Origin: Deltaproteobacteria bacterium
GTDB taxonomy: Bacteria > Desulfobacterota > Desulfobulbia > Desulfobulbales > Desulfurivibrionaceae
DNA: 41,850 nt
NCBI GenBank assembly: GCA_021802645.1
Contig: JAJZRO010000015.1
Location: forward strand, 14,846-56,695
Direction: 5' to 3'
Shown: positions 531-33,571 of the stretch, one piece after another
Numbering within the stretch: the first letter of the stretch is position 1
How the letters are laid out: each line of letters opens with the position of its first letter
Program-made: the position numbers and the translations under genes
The notes under the pieces: generated by a model
What the model saw: only the letters and a program-made list of their open reading frames with translations
Database searches by the model: none
What the model was told of the DNA's origin: nothing

Positions 531-1583
531 ATGGAACAAAGACGAATCCCTCGAGTGGTTTTGCTTGTCCTGGCAACCCTCCTGATCGTGGGGCTTGCGT
601 CTTGGTTTTGGGGCCTCATGCGGTCGCACAAGGCCCCGACGGAACTGGTGCTTTACGGTAATGTCGATATCCGGCAGGTCGAACTGGCCTTTAACGGTCA
701 GGAGCGGATTGCCACCATGTCGGCCCGGGAAGGAGAACGGGTCCACAAGGGGCAGTTGCTGGCAACATTGGATCGGCAACGCCTGGAATATACCGTTGCC
801 CAGGCCAAGGCGCAGGCGGCGGCCCAGCAGGAAATAGTTGCGCGTCTGGAAGCCGGTTCCCGGCCGGAGGAGATCCGACAGGCAAAATCCGCGGTCCAGG
901 CAGCGGAAGCGGACGCCAACATCGCCGAGCGAACGGCCCGGCGTTTGGCCTCGTTGGTGGCCTCCAGCGCTGTCTCCCGGCAACAGGCCGATGAGGCTGC
1001 GGCCAGTGCCAAATTGACCAAGGCGCGATTGCAGGAGGCCCGGGAAGCCTTGAAATTGGCGCTTGCCGGGCCGCGGCAGGAAGATATTGCGGCGGCCAAG
1101 GCAACCTTGCAGGCATATGAGGCCGCGCTGGGTCTGGCAGAAAAGCAACTGACCGATGCCAACCTGTATGCCCCGGTGGACGGGATTATTCAGGACCGGT
1201 TGCTGGAGCCTGGCGACATGGCTTCGCCCAGCCGACCGGTCTATACGGTGGCGCTTGATGAGTCTCTTTGGGTCCGGACCTATGTCTCGGTGCCGGATCT
1301 CGGTAAGGTGCGGCTCGGCATGGCGGCTCTGGTGAGTACCGACAGTTACCCTGCGAAACGCTATCGGGGTTGGGTCGGCTATATTTCGCCCACCTCGGAA
1401 TTTACGCCCAAAGCGGTGGAAACCACCGAAGTCCGCACCAGTCTTGTGCATCAACTCCGCGTCTATATCTGTGACGGCCAGGGAGACGAGTTGCGTCTCG
1501 GCATGCCGGCTACCGTCTCCATTCCCCTTACGCAAGCTGATTCGTCCAGGCCCCTGGGGGCCAATCCCTGCGGGAAGCAGTAA
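531..1583 (+). CDS. ybhG: HlyD-family periplasmic adaptor of ABC exporter
   Basis: A membrane-fusion (adaptor) protein of 350 residues that would link an inner-membrane ABC transporter to the periplasm or an outer-membrane channel. An uncleaved N-terminal membrane anchor spans about residues 9-30. It is followed by a barrel-sandwich half (GNVDIRQVELAF), a long Ala/Gln/Glu-rich alpha-helical hairpin (about 95-215), then the second lipoyl half (ANLYAPVDGII) and a beta-barrel (MPATVSI near the end). Length and order match E. coli YbhG. The stop codon overlaps the next start (TAATG), so it is translationally coupled to the ATP-binding subunit. The substrate is unknown; YbhGFSR relatives are linked to drug and cation efflux. 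A weak purine run precedes the ATG. Confidence 0.88.
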   Translation: MEQRRIPRVVLLVLATLLIVGLASWFWGLMRSHKAPTELVLYGNVDIRQVELAFNGQERIATMSAREGERVHKGQLLATLDRQRLEYTVAQAKAQAAAQQEIVARLEAGSRPEEIRQAKSAVQAAEADANIAERTARRLASLVASSAVSRQQADEAAASAKLTKARLQEAREALKLALAGPRQEDIAAAKATLQAYEAALGLAEKQLTDANLYAPVDGIIQDRLLEPGDMASPSRPVYTVALDESLWVRTYVSVPDLGKVRLGMAALVSTDSYPAKRYRGWVGYISPTSEFTPKAVETTEVRTSLVHQLRVYICDGQGDELRLGMPATVSIPLTQADSSRPLGANPCGKQ

Positions 1584-3388
1584 TGCCCCCGGCTTTGCCG
1601 ACACCGTCCGCGGCCGGAGAGGCTGGCCGCGACCAGCACGTCCTGACCTTTGCCGCGGTCAACAAGACCTTTCCCGCCATGCCTCGTCCCATTTCGGCCC
1701 TGACCGACATTTCCATCACGGTGCGTGCCGGGGAAGTCACCGGTCTCATCGGGCCTGACGGTGCAGGGAAAACCACGTTGATGCGCCTTGCCGCCGGTCT
1801 GCTTATCCCGGATTCCGGGCACATCACGGTATTGGGGATGGACGTGGTGCAGAACCAACAGACGGTCCAGGCGTCCATCGGCTATATGCCCCAGCGTTTT
1901 GGTCTGTACGAAGATCTGACCGTGCAGGAAAATCTGGATCTCTATGCGGATTTGCAGGGCGCGCCGGTGGCGGAACGACCGGCGCATTATGAGGAACTGT
2001 TGCGGATGACGGGCCTTGGCCCCTTTCTCGATCGGTTGGCAGGCCGCCTTTCCGGGGGGATGAAGCAGAAGCTTGGCCTGGCCTGTACCCTGGTGCGTCC
2101 CCCCCGTCTTTTGCTGCTCGATGAGCCGACGGTGGGAGTGGACCCGGTCTCGCGTCGGGAACTGTGGGCCATTGTCTACCGACTTACCCAGGAACAGGGA
2201 ATGAGCGTCTTGCTTAGCACCGCCTATCTGGACGAGGCGGAGCGATGCCACCAGGTCTTGCTCCTCAACGAGGGGCGTTTGCTTGGTTCCGGGCCACCGG
2301 GAAGCTTCAGTCGCCCGCTGTCGGGACGGACCTTTGTGTTGACCGTTCCAGCCGGGGAAAGAAGGCGGGTGCTGGAAACGGTGAGCGGGCAGACCGGGAT
2401 CACTGATGCGATAATCGCCCGACAGGGGGTGCGCGTGGTGACCGAGACTCCGGAGATGCCACCGCTTGCGCAATTGTTTCCCTCCCTGCCGGCGGTAGGA
2501 GTGGAGGCGGTGCCCCCCTCGCTGGAGGATGGTTTTGTCGCTTTGCTCCACGAAGACAAGGCCAGGCCGCGGCAAACCAAGACACTTCAGGTGGCCTCTG
2601 CCGGTGGGGCCCTCCCGCCGGGAGGGGGCGATGGGCCGGTGATCGCGGTGCATGATGTGCAACGTCGTTTCGGAGATTTTTATGCCGTGAAAGGGGTGAG
2701 CTTTGAGGTGCGCCGGGGCGAGGTCTTTGGCTTGCTGGGGGCCAATGGCGCGGGAAAATCGACGACCTTTCGCATGCTGTGCGGACTGCTGCCCGCTTCC
2801 GCCGGCGATCTCCGCGTGGCCGGTGTGGACCTGCGGCAGGCATCGGCCACGGCCCGAGCGCGAATCGGGTACATGTCCCAGAAATTTTCTCTCTATGGCA
2901 ATCTGAGCGTCCGGCAGAATCTGGATTTCTTCAGCAGCGCCTATAATCTCGCTGGCAACCATCGGCGTCAGCGGCTCGATTGGGCGCTTGAGACCTTCGA
3001 TCTCGCGCCGCTCGCCGAGACCATCAGCGGCGGGTTGCCGCTGGGCTACAAACAACGGCTTGCCCTGGCCTGTGCCCTCATGCATGAGCCGGATATTCTC
3101 TTCCTGGACGAGCCCACCTCCGGGGTCGATCCCCTGGCGCGCCGCGAATTTTGGCATCACATCAATATGCTGGCCGCCCAGCAGGTGACCGTGCTGGTCA
3201 CCACCCATTTTATGGAGGAAGCGGAATACTGTGATCGGTTGGCAATCATGGCGGAAGGGAGCCTACTGGCTCTCGGCACTCCGGAGGAGATCAAGAACCG
3301 GGCCCGGTCGGCGGATCGACCCGATCCGGACATGGAGGATGCCTTCATTCACCTGATTACCGTCCGGGAGCAAGAGGTGGCGGCATGA
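1583..3388 (+). CDS. ybhF: ABC transporter ATP-binding protein with two fused nucleotide-binding domains (YbhF type)
   Basis: A 601-residue cytoplasmic ATPase carrying two ABC domains. Domain 1 (about 20-250) has Walker A GPDGAGKTT, signature LSGGMKQK and Walker B LLLLDEPTVGVDP. Domain 2 (about 350-590) has Walker A GANGAGKST, a degenerate signature SGGLPLGYKQR and Walker B ILFLDEPTSGVDP. The fused dimer and the relaxed second signature are typical of YbhF. It starts on the ATG that overlaps the adaptor's stop, and its end overlaps the next gene (ATGA), so the operon is tightly coupled. It should power the heterodimeric permease encoded by the next two genes. Confidence 0.92.
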   Translation: MPPALPTPSAAGEAGRDQHVLTFAAVNKTFPAMPRPISALTDISITVRAGEVTGLIGPDGAGKTTLMRLAAGLLIPDSGHITVLGMDVVQNQQTVQASIGYMPQRFGLYEDLTVQENLDLYADLQGAPVAERPAHYEELLRMTGLGPFLDRLAGRLSGGMKQKLGLACTLVRPPRLLLLDEPTVGVDPVSRRELWAIVYRLTQEQGMSVLLSTAYLDEAERCHQVLLLNEGRLLGSGPPGSFSRPLSGRTFVLTVPAGERRRVLETVSGQTGITDAIIARQGVRVVTETPEMPPLAQLFPSLPAVGVEAVPPSLEDGFVALLHEDKARPRQTKTLQVASAGGALPPGGGDGPVIAVHDVQRRFGDFYAVKGVSFEVRRGEVFGLLGANGAGKSTTFRMLCGLLPASAGDLRVAGVDLRQASATARARIGYMSQKFSLYGNLSVRQNLDFFSSAYNLAGNHRRQRLDWALETFDLAPLAETISGGLPLGYKQRLALACALMHEPDILFLDEPTSGVDPLARREFWHHINMLAAQQVTVLVTTHFMEEAEYCDRLAIMAEGSLLALGTPEEIKNRARSADRPDPDMEDAFIHLITVREQEVAA

Positions 3389-29802: not shown

Positions 29803-29831
29803 TTGAAAAAAAGCAGAGAAGAAGGTATGAG
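29803..29831 (+). promoter_or_regulatory. Candidate promoter of the mgtA leader
   Basis: TTGAAA (29803-29808), a 17-base spacer and TATGAG (29826-29831). Two direct TTTGTGA copies (29779-29785, 29796-29802) lie immediately upstream and could be a regulator site. The predicted start near 29838 leaves about 59 bases before the leader ORF. Confidence 0.45.
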
Positions 29832-29896
29832 CGACATGGGACGGAAGAAGGCGTTCACGTCTTGATGGTTGGAACCAAATTTTCCCGGAGAACGGT

Positions 29897-30025
29897 ATGG
29901 GTAACCATGATGGCTGTAGTAGTAGCCCGAATGTGACTCAAACATTGAATCAGAGCGAAGACGACGACCCTGGCGCGTGGTGTCGTCGTCGTGTGGCTGT
30001 GTTGACGAATCGTTCCTGTCTGTGA
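29897..30025 (+). CDS. Leader peptide ORF upstream of mgtA (42 residues)
   Basis: A short ORF with a well-placed ribosome binding site (GGAG, 6 bases before ATG). The 42-residue product has no membrane or signal segment. The key feature is E21-D22-D23-D24-P25 followed by R30-R31-R32. Acidic-proline stretches destabilise the translating ribosome in low Mg2+ (known for enterobacterial MgtL, which also has EPDP then an Arg triplet). The Asp codons (29960-29968) are perfectly complementary to the region of the Arg codons (29982-29990), so the coding sequence itself folds into a 9-bp hairpin. The stop lies 61 bases before mgtA. The product is probably regulatory through its translation; no homology is recognised. 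Confidence 0.6.
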   Translation: MGNHDGCSSSPNVTQTLNQSEDDDPGAWCRRRVAVLTNRSCL

Positions 30026-30044
30026 TCCCCTGAACGACGGTTCG

Positions 30045-30080
30045 CCTCCAGCCGTTTCTTTGTCGCGGCTTTTCTGGAGG
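30045..30080 (+). promoter_or_regulatory. Hairpin sequestering the mgtA ribosome binding site
   Basis: CCTCCAG (30045-30051) is perfectly complementary to CTGGAGG (30074-30080), and the latter contains the GGAGG that serves mgtA at 30087. An inner GCCG/CGGC pairing (30051-30054 with 30066-30069) can extend it. Just upstream, CGAA plus CGTTC (30007-30015) can pair with GAACG plus TTCG (30032-30044). Ribosomes leaving the leader ORF early or late could choose between these folds. Confidence 0.55.
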
Positions 30081-30086
30081 TGAATC

Positions 30087-32744
30087 ATGAAAATCCCTCC
30101 CCTTGGTTTTAGGGAAAATCGGAAACTCCTCAATCGGGAGGGGTCCCGTTTCGTTTCTCCTGGCGAACACATCCTGGTCGAGATCTGCGGCCTTGCCCGG
30201 CAGGAGGCGCTCGAACGGCTCGAGGTCACTGGCCGTGGTCTGAGTGCGGAAGAGGCGGCCCGCCGTCTCGACGAGCATGGCCCGAACGAACTGGCCCAGG
30301 CCGAGCACCTGGGATTCTGGGCCGATATCCTGCATCGCCTGCGAAACCCCCTCAACATCCAGTTGCTTTTGATTGCGGCCATCTCCGGGACGATCGGGGA
30401 GCTCAAATCGGCCTTCATCGTCGGCGCCATGGTGGTTCTGAGCATCGGACTCTCCTACATTCTGGACCGTCGCTCCGGCCGCGCCGTAGAGGCCCTGGGC
30501 AAACGGGTGCAATCCCGCAGCATCGTGCTCCGGGAGGGAAAAGAGACGGAGGTCACCATCTCCGAGATCGTGCCCGGCGACATTGTGCTGCTGCAGGCCG
30601 GCTCCATTGTGCCGGCCGATCTGCGCCTGCTCTCGGCCAAGGATTTCTTCGTGAGCGAATCGGTCCTCACCGGCGAATCCATGGCGGTGGAAAAATCTGC
30701 CCTGCCCGCGGTTTCCGCCGGCCGCAGCGTGACGGAATTGCCCAATGCCTGCTTCCTCGGCAGTACGGTCACCAGCGGGACGGCCCAGGGCCTGGTGGTG
30801 AACACCGGCATCCGCACCATCTTCGGGGCCATCTCGGAACGTCTGGTCGAACGCCGCGAGGAAACCAGCTTCGACCGCGGGGTGCGTTCCTTCACCTGGC
30901 TCATGATCCGTTTCATGGTGGTCATGGTCTGCGCCGTCTTCTTTATCGTCGGTTTCACCAAGGGGAATTGGATCGAGGCCCTGCTCTTCGGCCTTTCCGT
31001 TGCCGTGGGCCTCACCCCGGAAATGCTGCCGATGATCGTCACCGTCAACCTGGCCAAGGGCGCTCTGACCATGGCCAAGCGCAAGGTCATCGTCAAGCGG
31101 CTGCCCTCCATCCAGAACTTTGGCGCCATCGATATCCTCTGTACCGACAAGACCGGCACCCTCACCCAGGATCGGGTGGTGCTCAAGCGCTACCTGGACA
31201 TCACCGGCCGCACCAGCGAGGATGTCCTGACCTACGCCTATCTCAACAGCTATTACCAGACCGGCCTGCGGAGCCTGATCGACCATGCGGTGCTCGACCA
31301 CGGCGTCCTGGATGCCGAGGCCAACTGCCGGCTGGTGGATGAGTTGCCCTTTGATTTTCAGCGCCGCCGCATGTCGGTGGTGGTGGACTACGAAGAGGAT
31401 CACGTGCTGATCTGCAAGGGGGCGGTGGAGGAGATCTACGAATGCTGTAGCCACTACCAGATCGGCGACGAGATCTTCCCCTTGATCCCGATGATCCGGC
31501 ACAACCTTTTCGAGGAGGTCGATCATCTCAACGAGGAGGGCTTTCGGGTTCTGGGGGTTGCCTACCGGGAATTCCCCCGCCGGCAGGCGACCTTCACCGT
31601 CCAGGATGAACGCGATCTGATTCTGCTGGGGTACATCGCCTTCTTCGATCCACCCAAGGTTTCCGCCCTGGAGGCGATTGGCCAGCTGCGCAACGCCGGG
31701 GTGCGGATCAAGATTCTGACCGGCGACAATGCGTTGGTTACCCGCAAGGTCTGCCGCGACGTGGAGTTCGCCATTGACCGAATTGTCAGCGGCGCCGAAT
31801 TGGCCTCGCTGTCCGAAGCCGAGTTTCGGCGGGTGGTGGAAGAGGTGGACGCCTTTGTCAAGCTCAACCCGACGCAGAAGGAAGAGATTGTGCGGCAGTT
31901 GCGGGAAAACGGCCACGTGGTGGGCTTCTTGGGGGATGGCATCAACGATGCCCCGGCCCTCAAGGCCGCCGATGTCGGCATCTCGGTCGATTCCGCCGTC
32001 GATGTGGCCAAGGAGGCGGCGGATATCGTCCTGCTCGAGAAGAACCTGCTGGTCCTTGAAGAGGGCATCATCGAAGGACGACGGGTCTTCGCCAACATCG
32101 TCAAATACATCCGCATGGGGGCGAGTTCCAACTTCGGCAACATGTTCAGCGTGGTGGGCGCGAGCTATCTTTTCCCCTTCCTGCCCATGCAGCCGGTCCA
32201 GGTCCTGGTCAACAACCTGCTCTACGACTTTTCGCAAACCGGTATTCCCTCCGACAACGTGGACGAGGAGCTGATCGCCAAACCCCTCAAGTGGGATATC
32301 GCCAACATCAAGCGCTTCATGGTCGTTGTCGGGCCGATCAGCTCGATCTTCGACTATGCCACCTATGCCTTGATGTGGTTTTTCTTCGGCTGCCGCCTCT
32401 TCAGCGATCCCGCCACCTCAGCGGTGTCGCGCGAGGGCTTGGCCCGGCTCTTTCAGACCGGCTGGTTCGTGGAGTCCCTGCTGACCCAGACGCTGATCGT
32501 GCACATCATCAGGACGAAGCGACTCCCGTTTATCGGCAGTCACGCCTCGTTGCCCATGACCCTGACCACCCTCGCCATCATGGCGATTGCCGCTTGGCTG
32601 CCCTATTCGCCCTTTGCCGCGGGGTTGGGCATGGTGCCTTTGCCGTCGGTGTACTGGCTGTGGATCGTCGCGTTCCTGCTTTGTTACGCCATTTTGACCC
32701 ATTACGTGAAAACGTGGTTTTTTAACCGGTATGGAGGGGAATAG
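30087..32744 (+). CDS. mgtA: Magnesium-translocating P-type ATPase
   Basis: An 885-residue P3B-type ATPase that imports Mg2+ across the inner membrane. Phosphorylation site D354 lies in CTDKTGTLT; the dephosphorylation loop is LTGES; the hinge is GDGINDAPALKAADVGI. The membrane signature GLTPEMLPMIVTVNLAKGA and the C-terminal NNLLYDFSQTGIPSDNVD are MgtA/MgtB-specific. The first 35 residues or so are a polar cytoplasmic extension. GGAGG precedes the ATG, buried in a hairpin. The next gene starts 2 bases after the stop, with its binding site inside the mgtA 3' end. Confidence 0.97.
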   Translation: MKIPPLGFRENRKLLNREGSRFVSPGEHILVEICGLARQEALERLEVTGRGLSAEEAARRLDEHGPNELAQAEHLGFWADILHRLRNPLNIQLLLIAAISGTIGELKSAFIVGAMVVLSIGLSYILDRRSGRAVEALGKRVQSRSIVLREGKETEVTISEIVPGDIVLLQAGSIVPADLRLLSAKDFFVSESVLTGESMAVEKSALPAVSAGRSVTELPNACFLGSTVTSGTAQGLVVNTGIRTIFGAISERLVERREETSFDRGVRSFTWLMIRFMVVMVCAVFFIVGFTKGNWIEALLFGLSVAVGLTPEMLPMIVTVNLAKGALTMAKRKVIVKRLPSIQNFGAIDILCTDKTGTLTQDRVVLKRYLDITGRTSEDVLTYAYLNSYYQTGLRSLIDHAVLDHGVLDAEANCRLVDELPFDFQRRRMSVVVDYEEDHVLICKGAVEEIYECCSHYQIGDEIFPLIPMIRHNLFEEVDHLNEEGFRVLGVAYREFPRRQATFTVQDERDLILLGYIAFFDPPKVSALEAIGQLRNAGVRIKILTGDNALVTRKVCRDVEFAIDRIVSGAELASLSEAEFRRVVEEVDAFVKLNPTQKEEIVRQLRENGHVVGFLGDGINDAPALKAADVGISVDSAVDVAKEAADIVLLEKNLLVLEEGIIEGRRVFANIVKYIRMGASSNFGNMFSVVGASYLFPFLPMQPVQVLVNNLLYDFSQTGIPSDNVDEELIAKPLKWDIANIKRFMVVVGPISSIFDYATYALMWFFFGCRLFSDPATSAVSREGLARLFQTGWFVESLLTQTLIVHIIRTKRLPFIGSHASLPMTLTTLAIMAIAAWLPYSPFAAGLGMVPLPSVYWLWIVAFLLCYAILTHYVKTWFFNRYGGE

Positions 32745-32746
32745 CC

Positions 32747-33571
32747 ATGGACAGCCTGTTGGACGCCCTGCAGGAGGGCCGGTTGATCGAGTTGCCGGAC
32801 AACGACAAGGTCGATGCCCTGCAGTTTCTCGCCCATATCATCGAGGCGATTCCGTCGCTGCCGGCCGGCACCGACGTGGCCGGGCTGATCCTGGCCAGGG
32901 ATCAGACCACGCAGACCGCGCTGGGCAAGGGGTGGGCCTGCCCCGATGCCCGGGTCCCCTTCGACGAAGACTTGATCTGCGTCGTCGGTTGGAGCCCGCA
33001 GGGCATCGACTACGGTGCCGCGGACGGCATTCCGGTCTCCATCATCGCCATGTATCTGGTGCCGGAGAACCAGCGCAACCATTACCTGCGCGAGGTCTCC
33101 CTGCTGGCCAAGGCCCTGGCCGTCTATCCGGGCATGGACGGGCTGCGGGCGGCCAAGGAACTCAACCAGGTCCGCGACCATCTGCTCGACCTCATCAGTT
33201 CCACCAAGGAAACGGTGGGGCCCGACAGCCGCGCCCGCATGATCCGGTTGCAGGCGAGGCCAACCCTGGAGGCCCTGCCGGCCGGCGACCTTTCGAACCT
33301 GATCATCGAGCCGGTGACGCTCATCGCCACGCCGGGCGCCAAGCCTATTATCCTCACCCAACATGCGGGATTGGCGCAACATCTAGACACCGCCGCCGCC
33401 CTGATCGAGAAGATCGAGAGCGAGGGCGTTTTCCAGATCGGCGGCTGGCGCATCGCCAAGCGCAGCAAAACCGCCTACCAGAATGGCCGCTTCGCCTACG
33501 ATTGCCTGGCCATCAGGCGGGCCGATCAGCGGGAGGGCGCCGCCGGACCCGCCGGCCATCGCATTCCCTGA
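32747..33571 (+). CDS. PTS EIIA-like protein with substituted active-site His
   Basis: A 274-residue cytoplasmic protein. Residues about 30-150 resemble the EIIA (nitrogen/fructose type) fold: AGLILARDQTTQTALGKG, then ACPDARV, then VSIIAMYLVPENQRNHYLRE and VSLLAKAL. In EIIA-Ntr the phosphorylated His lies in the AIPH segment; here that position is Asp (D67), so it cannot be phosphorylated in the usual way. The C-terminal 100 or so residues (about 165-262) are unassigned and may be a ligand-binding extension. It is translationally coupled to mgtA. A sensor or allosteric partner of the Mg2+ transporter is a reasonable inference; EIIA-Ntr proteins are known to regulate K+ transporters. Confidence 0.7.
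   Translation: MDSLLDALQEGRLIELPDNDKVDALQFLAHIIEAIPSLPAGTDVAGLILARDQTTQTALGKGWACPDARVPFDEDLICVVGWSPQGIDYGAADGIPVSIIAMYLVPENQRNHYLREVSLLAKALAVYPGMDGLRAAKELNQVRDHLLDLISSTKETVGPDSRARMIRLQARPTLEALPAGDLSNLIIEPVTLIATPGAKPIILTQHAGLAQHLDTAAALIEKIESEGVFQIGGWRIAKRSKTAYQNGRFAYDCLAIRRADQREGAAGPAGHRIP

Follow-up and report, generated by a model that had tools for sequence, protein, structure and literature searches.

The leader peptide MgtL of the enterobacteria carries acidic and proline codons (EPDP) ahead of mgtA, and mgtA is switched on via an alternative RNA fold when ribosomes drop off prematurely at low Mg2+ (PMC11282234, PMC11552253), in Salmonella by way of Rho-dependent transcription termination. 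In the mgtCBRU operon of Salmonella (PMC8092293), the 8-codon ORF mgtQ lies between mgtC and mgtB, also contains ribosome-destabilizing acidic codons, which the control requires, and acts at the level of translation through a pair of mutually exclusive stem-loops. One stem-loop hides the ribosome binding site (RBS) of the Mg2+ P-type ATPase, and 2:3 forms when a ribosome occupies region 1. In both E. coli and Salmonella, ribosomes abort more readily on acidic/Pro chains when Mg2+ is low (PMC11282234, PMC11552253, PMC8092293), and EttA counters drop-off at acidic residues (PMC11282234). The M-box (ykoK/Magnesium, RF00380), which precedes mgtE, mgtA and NRAMP-type (NrmT) genes (PMC4072509), is by comparison a pure RNA aptamer. 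The Thioalkalivibrio mgtE motif (candidate SRC-65-1, PMC11109978) lies upstream of mgtE with the Shine-Dalgarno sequence (SD) and AUG in its last stem; in the portion of that source used here, and by description only, it is reported solely from Thioalkalivibrio and with no mention of an ORF. In the trp/ilv-type attenuators a ribosome on a leader ORF likewise decides the alternative pairing of one strand, but the signal is charged tRNA and the target a terminator rather than an RBS.

Here we describe a leader upstream of mgtA in a 41,850-nucleotide stretch of DNA from the Desulfobacterota, referred to as a whole as the window, together with its relatives across the phylum. The closest known mechanisms appear to be those of mgtQ-mgtB and MgtL, to neither of which did we find a sequence relationship. 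On the comparative evidence the leader has the mgtQ-type layout of an acidic-codon ORF with two exclusive helices, but the ORF is longer (35-46 codons among members) and itself supplies the strand that frees the RBS, and the leader comes from another phylum, has no visible sequence similarity to mgtQ-mgtB, and stands before mgtE and NRMT genes as well. Homology with mgtQ is not indicated by the ORF length, by the downstream genes or by the upstream gene, which in the window is divergent and of the DedA family, not mgtC. MgtL has its motif at codons 2-5, differs in peptide and RNA, and works through termination where the present leader is predicted to act on the RBS; by inspection, the present peptides are not of the MgtL type, with an acidic/Pro motif at the very N-terminus and then an Arg run. 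The M-box serves the same set of transporter genes, yet its RF00380 model found none in 28 genomes (that of the window and 27 relatives) while finding the B. subtilis and L. lactis controls. Unlike the trp/ilv-type attenuators, the leader is not followed by an amino-acid biosynthesis gene, and no run of codons for one residue is conserved across its members. A search of the open-access literature, with subscription papers and preprints outside its scope, returned no earlier description of such leaders in Desulfobacterota.

The mgtA leader in the window

The regulated gene encodes a product that matches TIGR01524 at 1063.8 bits (cut-off 610.75), and the leader ORF ahead of it runs on the + strand from an ATG at 29897 to a TGA at 30025, encoding the 42-residue peptide MGNHDGCSSSPNVTQTLNQSEDDDPGAWCRRRVAVLTNRSCL. 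The features of the locus are as follows.

29803-29831, + strand: putative promoter-like block read from the sequence, TTGAAA (29803-29808), 17 nt, TATGAG (29826-29831)
29887-29890, + strand: GGAG, SD of the leader ORF, from the sequence; in relatives most leader ORFs likewise follow an SD-like sequence
29897-30025, + strand: leader ORF (uORF), 42 codons, of which codons ~1-26 appear to be kept as an acidic peptide and the rest as RNA
29957-29971, + strand: acidic-Pro codons E21 D22 D23 D24 P25; EDEDP, PEDP, HDDP or KEEP in aligned relatives
29960-29990, + strand: Asp/Arg-codon 9-bp hairpin, 29960-29968 with 29982-29990
29993-30012, + strand: uORF arm of the anti-sequestor (29993-29999 and 30006-30012), within codons 33-39
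30038-30055, + strand: shared central strand, pairing partner of either the uORF arm or the RBS arm
30065-30085, + strand: RBS arm of the sequestor (30065-30069 and 30077-30085), holding the mgtA SD GGAGG at 30076-30080
30087-32744, + strand: mgtA, Mg2+-transporting P-type ATPase (TIGR01524)
32747-33571, + strand: EIIA/PtsN-like ORF, a weak match to PTS IIA models, below cut-off

All the elements that a preliminary description had read from this sequence are present, namely the 42-codon ORF with its GGAG, the E21-D24-P25 motif, an Arg triplet at R30-R32, a 9-bp complement in which GACGACGAC (29960-29968) is fully complementary to GTCGTCGTC (29982-29990), and a 7-bp hairpin of CCTCCAG (30045-30051) with CTGGAGG (30074-30080) that conceals the mgtA SD. 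The fold of the window leader alone is only mildly better than that of shuffled sequences (z -1.66), and the proof therefore rests on relatives. Its N-terminal motif, NHDG, is weak. A small hairpin lies near the ORF start (29912-29930, codons 6-11), formed by GGCU/AGCC in the window and by GGCAG/CUGCC or GGUCC/GGACC in relatives, and may be a third conserved RNA element. The leader had no Rfam match at either gathering or permissive thresholds, and a known riboswitch was accordingly discarded as a candidate.

The TTGAAA-N17-TATGAG block lies ~66 nt upstream of the leader ORF and is among the conserved upstream stretches in the eight closest loci; it is a weak candidate because a strict scan for a consensus sigma-70 promoter found none, and its conservation is only suggestive of a promoter. 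The EIIA/PtsN-like ORF begins 2 nt after mgtA and possibly belongs to the mgtA operon, outside the switch; a link between Mg2+ uptake and PTS-type regulation is possible. The window genome has no mgtE above cut-off and encodes an EttA relative (971.6 bits, above cut-off).

Leaders of mgtA in related genomes

We sampled mgtA orthologues from the family of the window organism and from a single genome of each species. Both the ORF and the RBS hairpin are kept in the seven closest loci (L031-L035, L037 and L068, from Desulfobulbaceae and Deltaproteobacteria MAGs), with the peptide consensus MSSPDGSSSPTVTQ-VAQNEDEDPG(S/A)(C/W)CCSCVAVLTNRSLL, and farther mgtA loci have homologous leaders with very different peptides, such as MGDSDGSRSCNDMSQEHPSEEHDDPG..., MSDSDGSYSCQCKTRELTQEEPEDPG... 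and the GTG-started SSPDGSSSSSSTQTLNQNEKEEPD.... In place of the CRRR of the window the relatives have CCCSC or other residues; the runs of Cys and of Arg are each private to a clade, and only acidic and Pro residues recur across clades. A cysteine attenuator, suggested by CCCSC, was rejected since the run is confined to one clade.

The preliminary description had proposed that translation of the leader decides whether the RBS hairpin forms, and it had stressed the complementarity between the Asp and Arg codons. The translated leader, the RBS hairpin and an acidic-Pro peptide unlike MgtL are borne out by the relatives, but the Asp/Arg pairing is not: the 9-bp hairpin, considered as the core of the switch, is not retained in 17 aligned relatives and the Arg triplet is missing from them, so that both were dropped as functional parts. 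Judged from the alignments, the 9-bp hairpin is private to the window sequence and probably non-functional.

Two helices that compete for one strand

RNAalifold applied to an alignment of 18 leaders returned the sequestor (columns 150-158/194-202 and 161-165/181-185), which in window coordinates pairs 30040-30048 with 30085-30077 and 30051-30055 with 30069-30065. When the RBS arm was left out, it found unprompted a second helix between the ORF end and the same central strand. This anti-sequestor, which pairs 29993-29999 with 30055-30049 and 30006-30012 with 30044-30038, is the alternative structure that the preliminary description had missed, in which codons 33-39 take up the 5' strand of the hairpin over the RBS. 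The uORF arm (GYGGCY..TGAAYC) copies in kind the RBS arm (GCGGCC..GAGGTGAACC).

In the 18 leaders, 99.2% of cells are paired in the sequestor and 90.5% in the anti-sequestor. A 39-leader alignment was used for wider pairing counts, in which the hairpin over the RBS was retained as had been anticipated (98.0% of cells paired, with both-side changes in 8 of 14 pairs), and the anti-sequestor was 86.4% paired, with both-side changes in 8 of 13 pairs (28 cells), as against 27-45% in controls in which the strands were slid; the sequestor likewise lies far above its slid controls. The covariation score was matched by none of 500 shuffles for each helix, a figure to be read with the relatedness of the sequences in mind. 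A coding leader with two alternative helices is well supported by these alignments. No conserved multi-stem aptamer between the ORF start and the arm was seen in the fold of the 18-leader alignment.

For transcripts that stop before the RBS arm, the anti-sequestor is predicted with a median probability of 0.97-0.98. In the full leader at equilibrium the sequestor wins whether or not the arm is masked, and the median SD accessibility is 0.02; the choice between the helices must therefore occur during transcription, and an ON state would require kinetic control. In nearly all members the SD/start region lies within the conserved downstream helix, which has no conserved U tract at its end; the window itself has a terminator-like site at 30036-30056.

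A peptide half and an RNA half of the leader ORF

The ORF frame is kept among relatives, as the preliminary description had required of a translated leader: frame 0 has no stop in any of 34 leader ORFs, while stops occur in frame +1 in 34/34 and in frame +2 in 33/34. Within codons 2-26, conservative amino-acid change exceeds that of all 200 column shuffles (z 3.1) and dN/dS within groups is 0.29-0.48, whereas the distal part retains a residual codon signal (z 2.3, equalled in 3 of 200 shuffles) with dN/dS of ~0.6-1.2 in most groups and 0.32 in one two-sequence group. The proximal half is acidic (21.5% D/E vs 5.8% K/R) and the distal half is not (3.9% vs 15.1%). The peptides share the start M-x-[SDNGE]-[SPH]-D-G and a second motif near codons 21-25; codon 5 is acidic (M-x-x-x-[DE] start) in 32/34, and the acidic-Pro motif predicted to be conserved is present in its strict form in 26 of the 34.

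In each of the 34 leaders the distance from the start codon to the beginning of the uORF arm is 87-102 nt, in spite of varying ORF length and stop position, and from this geometry a ribosome held or lost at codons 21-26 would leave the arm just free. One group (L045, L053 and L060) reads the arm in a different frame, with a gap at column 112 of alignment A1, and the distal half is therefore kept mainly as RNA. The shared strand begins 7-15 nt past the stop codon in most members, so near that a terminating ribosome may cover it, and the geometry of the off-switch varies among members.

Several leaders depart from this pattern. Three mgtE leaders (L122, L125 and L127) have no acidic-Pro motif near codon 25, which leaves only N-terminal residues of the SDSDG type as the candidate sensor there. 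Genome G118 carries two leader copies, L122 before mgtE and L134 before mgtA; the mgtE leader is without the EDPG motif, and in the mgtA leader a stop cuts the ORF to ~10 codons and the RNA helices are kept. At L062 (~2639-2740) a natural deletion fuses the ORF start (MSDPDVSHSCSKLIQK) directly with the RBS arm, so that both the acidic motif and the central strand are lost; constitutive expression is predicted for this locus. At L126 (near 1560-1640, minus strand) the ORF runs past an A7 only in another frame (EKKRTW or KKREPGPLRLW...); this frame change just before the acidic-Pro codons is possibly a sequencing error or a frameshift site.

Distribution in the phylum and downstream genes

The covariance model R1 was built from 18 mgtA leaders and fitted to the sequestor region, not to the anti-sequestor. 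Of 395 genomes of the phylum, 23 contained the element by this model; two class-level searches gave further members, and a third gave just the copies already known from G118. Applied regardless of gene, R1 found 25 leaders, and every one of them precedes a Mg2+ transporter gene, 11 of these being mgtA (TIGR01524), 12 mgtE (TIGR00400 or PF01769/PF03448) and 2 NRMT-type NRAMP genes, for a total of 43 leaders with the 18 seed loci included. A weak extra match inside the L127 mgtE gene (19.4 bits) was discarded as chance. The two NRAMP cases, L132 and L135, are copies in one genome (G363), and the NRAMP gene is interrupted at L132 and intact at L135. The L135 protein matches the Mg2+ transporter EleNRMT (PDB 7QIA), which has been structurally characterized (PMC8806188), at E 9.7e-61, as against about 1e-10 or weaker for other NRAMP/MntH chains. 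The leader family is real and widespread. Its position before three unrelated families of Mg2+ transporter is a strong hint of Mg2+ sensing, and from these gene associations the leader likely senses Mg2+.

At many mgtA loci a small ORF is initiated from the hidden RBS and extends close to, or past, the start of mgtA. A new regulatory peptide was considered for this ORF and rejected when protein comparison showed it to be a decayed MgtE start: at L055 (2654-2923) it shares 66% identity with the MgtE N-terminus over its first 44 residues (E 4e-17), L048 (2666-2926) is similar in the same way, and L069 (929-1186) was called a decayed MgtE N-terminus by eye only. Hence the leader plausibly served mgtE before it served mgtA, which would have inherited it by replacing or following mgtE, and the small ORF would be the fossil of that transporter swap. 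In the clade of the window we infer that the hidden RBS serves mgtA directly.

A second class of leader

A second class of leader precedes mgtA at L036 (2603-2762), L039, L049 (from Desulforhabdus sp. TSK) and L050, with further members at L136-L142; a model, R2, built from four class 2 sequences, gave hits of the same kind. Its short ORF is unrelated to that of class 1 and carries acidic-PP motifs (KEDQPP, DDDQPP, ENDDKPP or similar). A downstream strand (UAUCG..UCAC..CCGC..CUUCCAC) can pair either with the end of this ORF (GUGGAAGUUGCG..GUGA..CGAUA) or with the purine-rich, GGAGG-like AAGCGGAAGG/CAGCGGAGG; covariation evidence is weak because there are only four seed sequences. The genes that follow are mgtA or NRAMP. 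Genus g215 includes a genome with class 1 (L121) and one with class 2 (L136), and in each the leader stands ahead of mgtA.

Discussion

Based on the alignments and on the known enterobacterial leaders, we propose that a translation-dependent RNA switch controls the Mg2+ transporter, in which the ribosome at the acidic/Pro codons sets the alternative helices, and we regard this mechanism as moderately probable. Specifically, a ribosome would translate the leader ORF of ~42 codons, which encodes an acidic N-terminal half with prolines (EDDDP in the window). The central strand (30038-30055) could then pair upstream with the ORF end, as the anti-sequestor, to leave the RBS free, or downstream with the mgtA RBS, as the sequestor, to hide it. 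Low Mg2+ would weaken ribosomes on acidic/Pro nascent chains so that translation breaks off or pauses near codon 25; the arm in the uORF would then remain free and capture the newly transcribed central strand, and mgtA would be translated. With enough Mg2+, the ribosome would cross the arm to the stop codon and disrupt the anti-sequestor, allowing the RBS hairpin to form. At the level of sequence comparison, the coding leader ORF, both helices, their fixed spacing and the association with Mg2+ transporters are established; we infer that Mg2+ is the signal, that ribosome abortion or pausing is the sensor, that regulation runs in this direction and that the choice of fold is co-transcriptional.

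The same RBS switch could be controlled by the leader ORF in response to the supply of charged tRNA or amino acids, read at Cys, Pro or Arg codons. Such a layout is common in attenuators of amino-acid operons, CCCSC follows the acidic motif in the closest relatives, and Salmonella mgtP responds to charged tRNA-Pro (PMC8092293); the Cys and Arg runs are, however, missing from other clades, where only the acidic/Pro residues recur, and with downstream genes that are all Mg2+ transporters we consider this signal unlikely. If instead the RNA itself bound Mg2+, as a riboswitch in which the ORF is a passenger that keeps the arm single-stranded, then the two well-conserved alternative helices and the mgtE leaders without an acidic-Pro motif would be readily explained, and purely RNA-based control by Mg2+ is known from the M-box. 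Such a sensor would have no need of the conservation of codons 2-26 as a peptide, and given also the lack of an Rfam match and of a conserved multi-stem aptamer between the ORF start and the arm, we think it quite unlikely.

Control might also be exerted on transcription, with leader translation deciding Rho access or termination as in Salmonella mgtL, which acts via Rho (PMC11552253), and with the RBS hairpin secondary. The terminator-like site at 30036-30056 would fit this, but a conserved downstream helix that covers the SD/start in nearly all members without a conserved U tract makes it improbable. Least of all do we favor a leader that senses nothing and whose translation merely keeps or opens the RBS hairpin by translational coupling, giving constant expression: many relatives do have a hidden RBS that starts a remnant ORF overlapping the mgtA start, but a covarying, exclusive second helix inside the ORF is not needed for constitutive coupling, and we judge this highly improbable.

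Returning to the ribosome-sensing switch, the wider proposal is of a phylum-wide, aptamer-free Mg2+ regulon that works by nascent-peptide sensing, in which the leader moved among mgtE, mgtA and NRMT genes and class 2 evolved the same switch and replaces class 1 in one genus; we give this broader picture an even chance. In the literature cited here, nascent-peptide sensing of Mg2+ is represented by E. coli and Salmonella leaders only (PMC11282234, PMC11552253, PMC8092293), and an independent, covarying family in another phylum makes ribosome stability as a general Mg2+ meter directly testable and offers natural peptide variants, with the motif in place, displaced or missing, on an RNA switch that stays the same. 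The leader also marks NRAMP-family genes that are likely to carry Mg2+. If the proposal is true, the destabilization of ribosomes by acidic/Pro chains would be a repeatedly invented Mg2+ sensor of bacteria and not an enterobacterial peculiarity.
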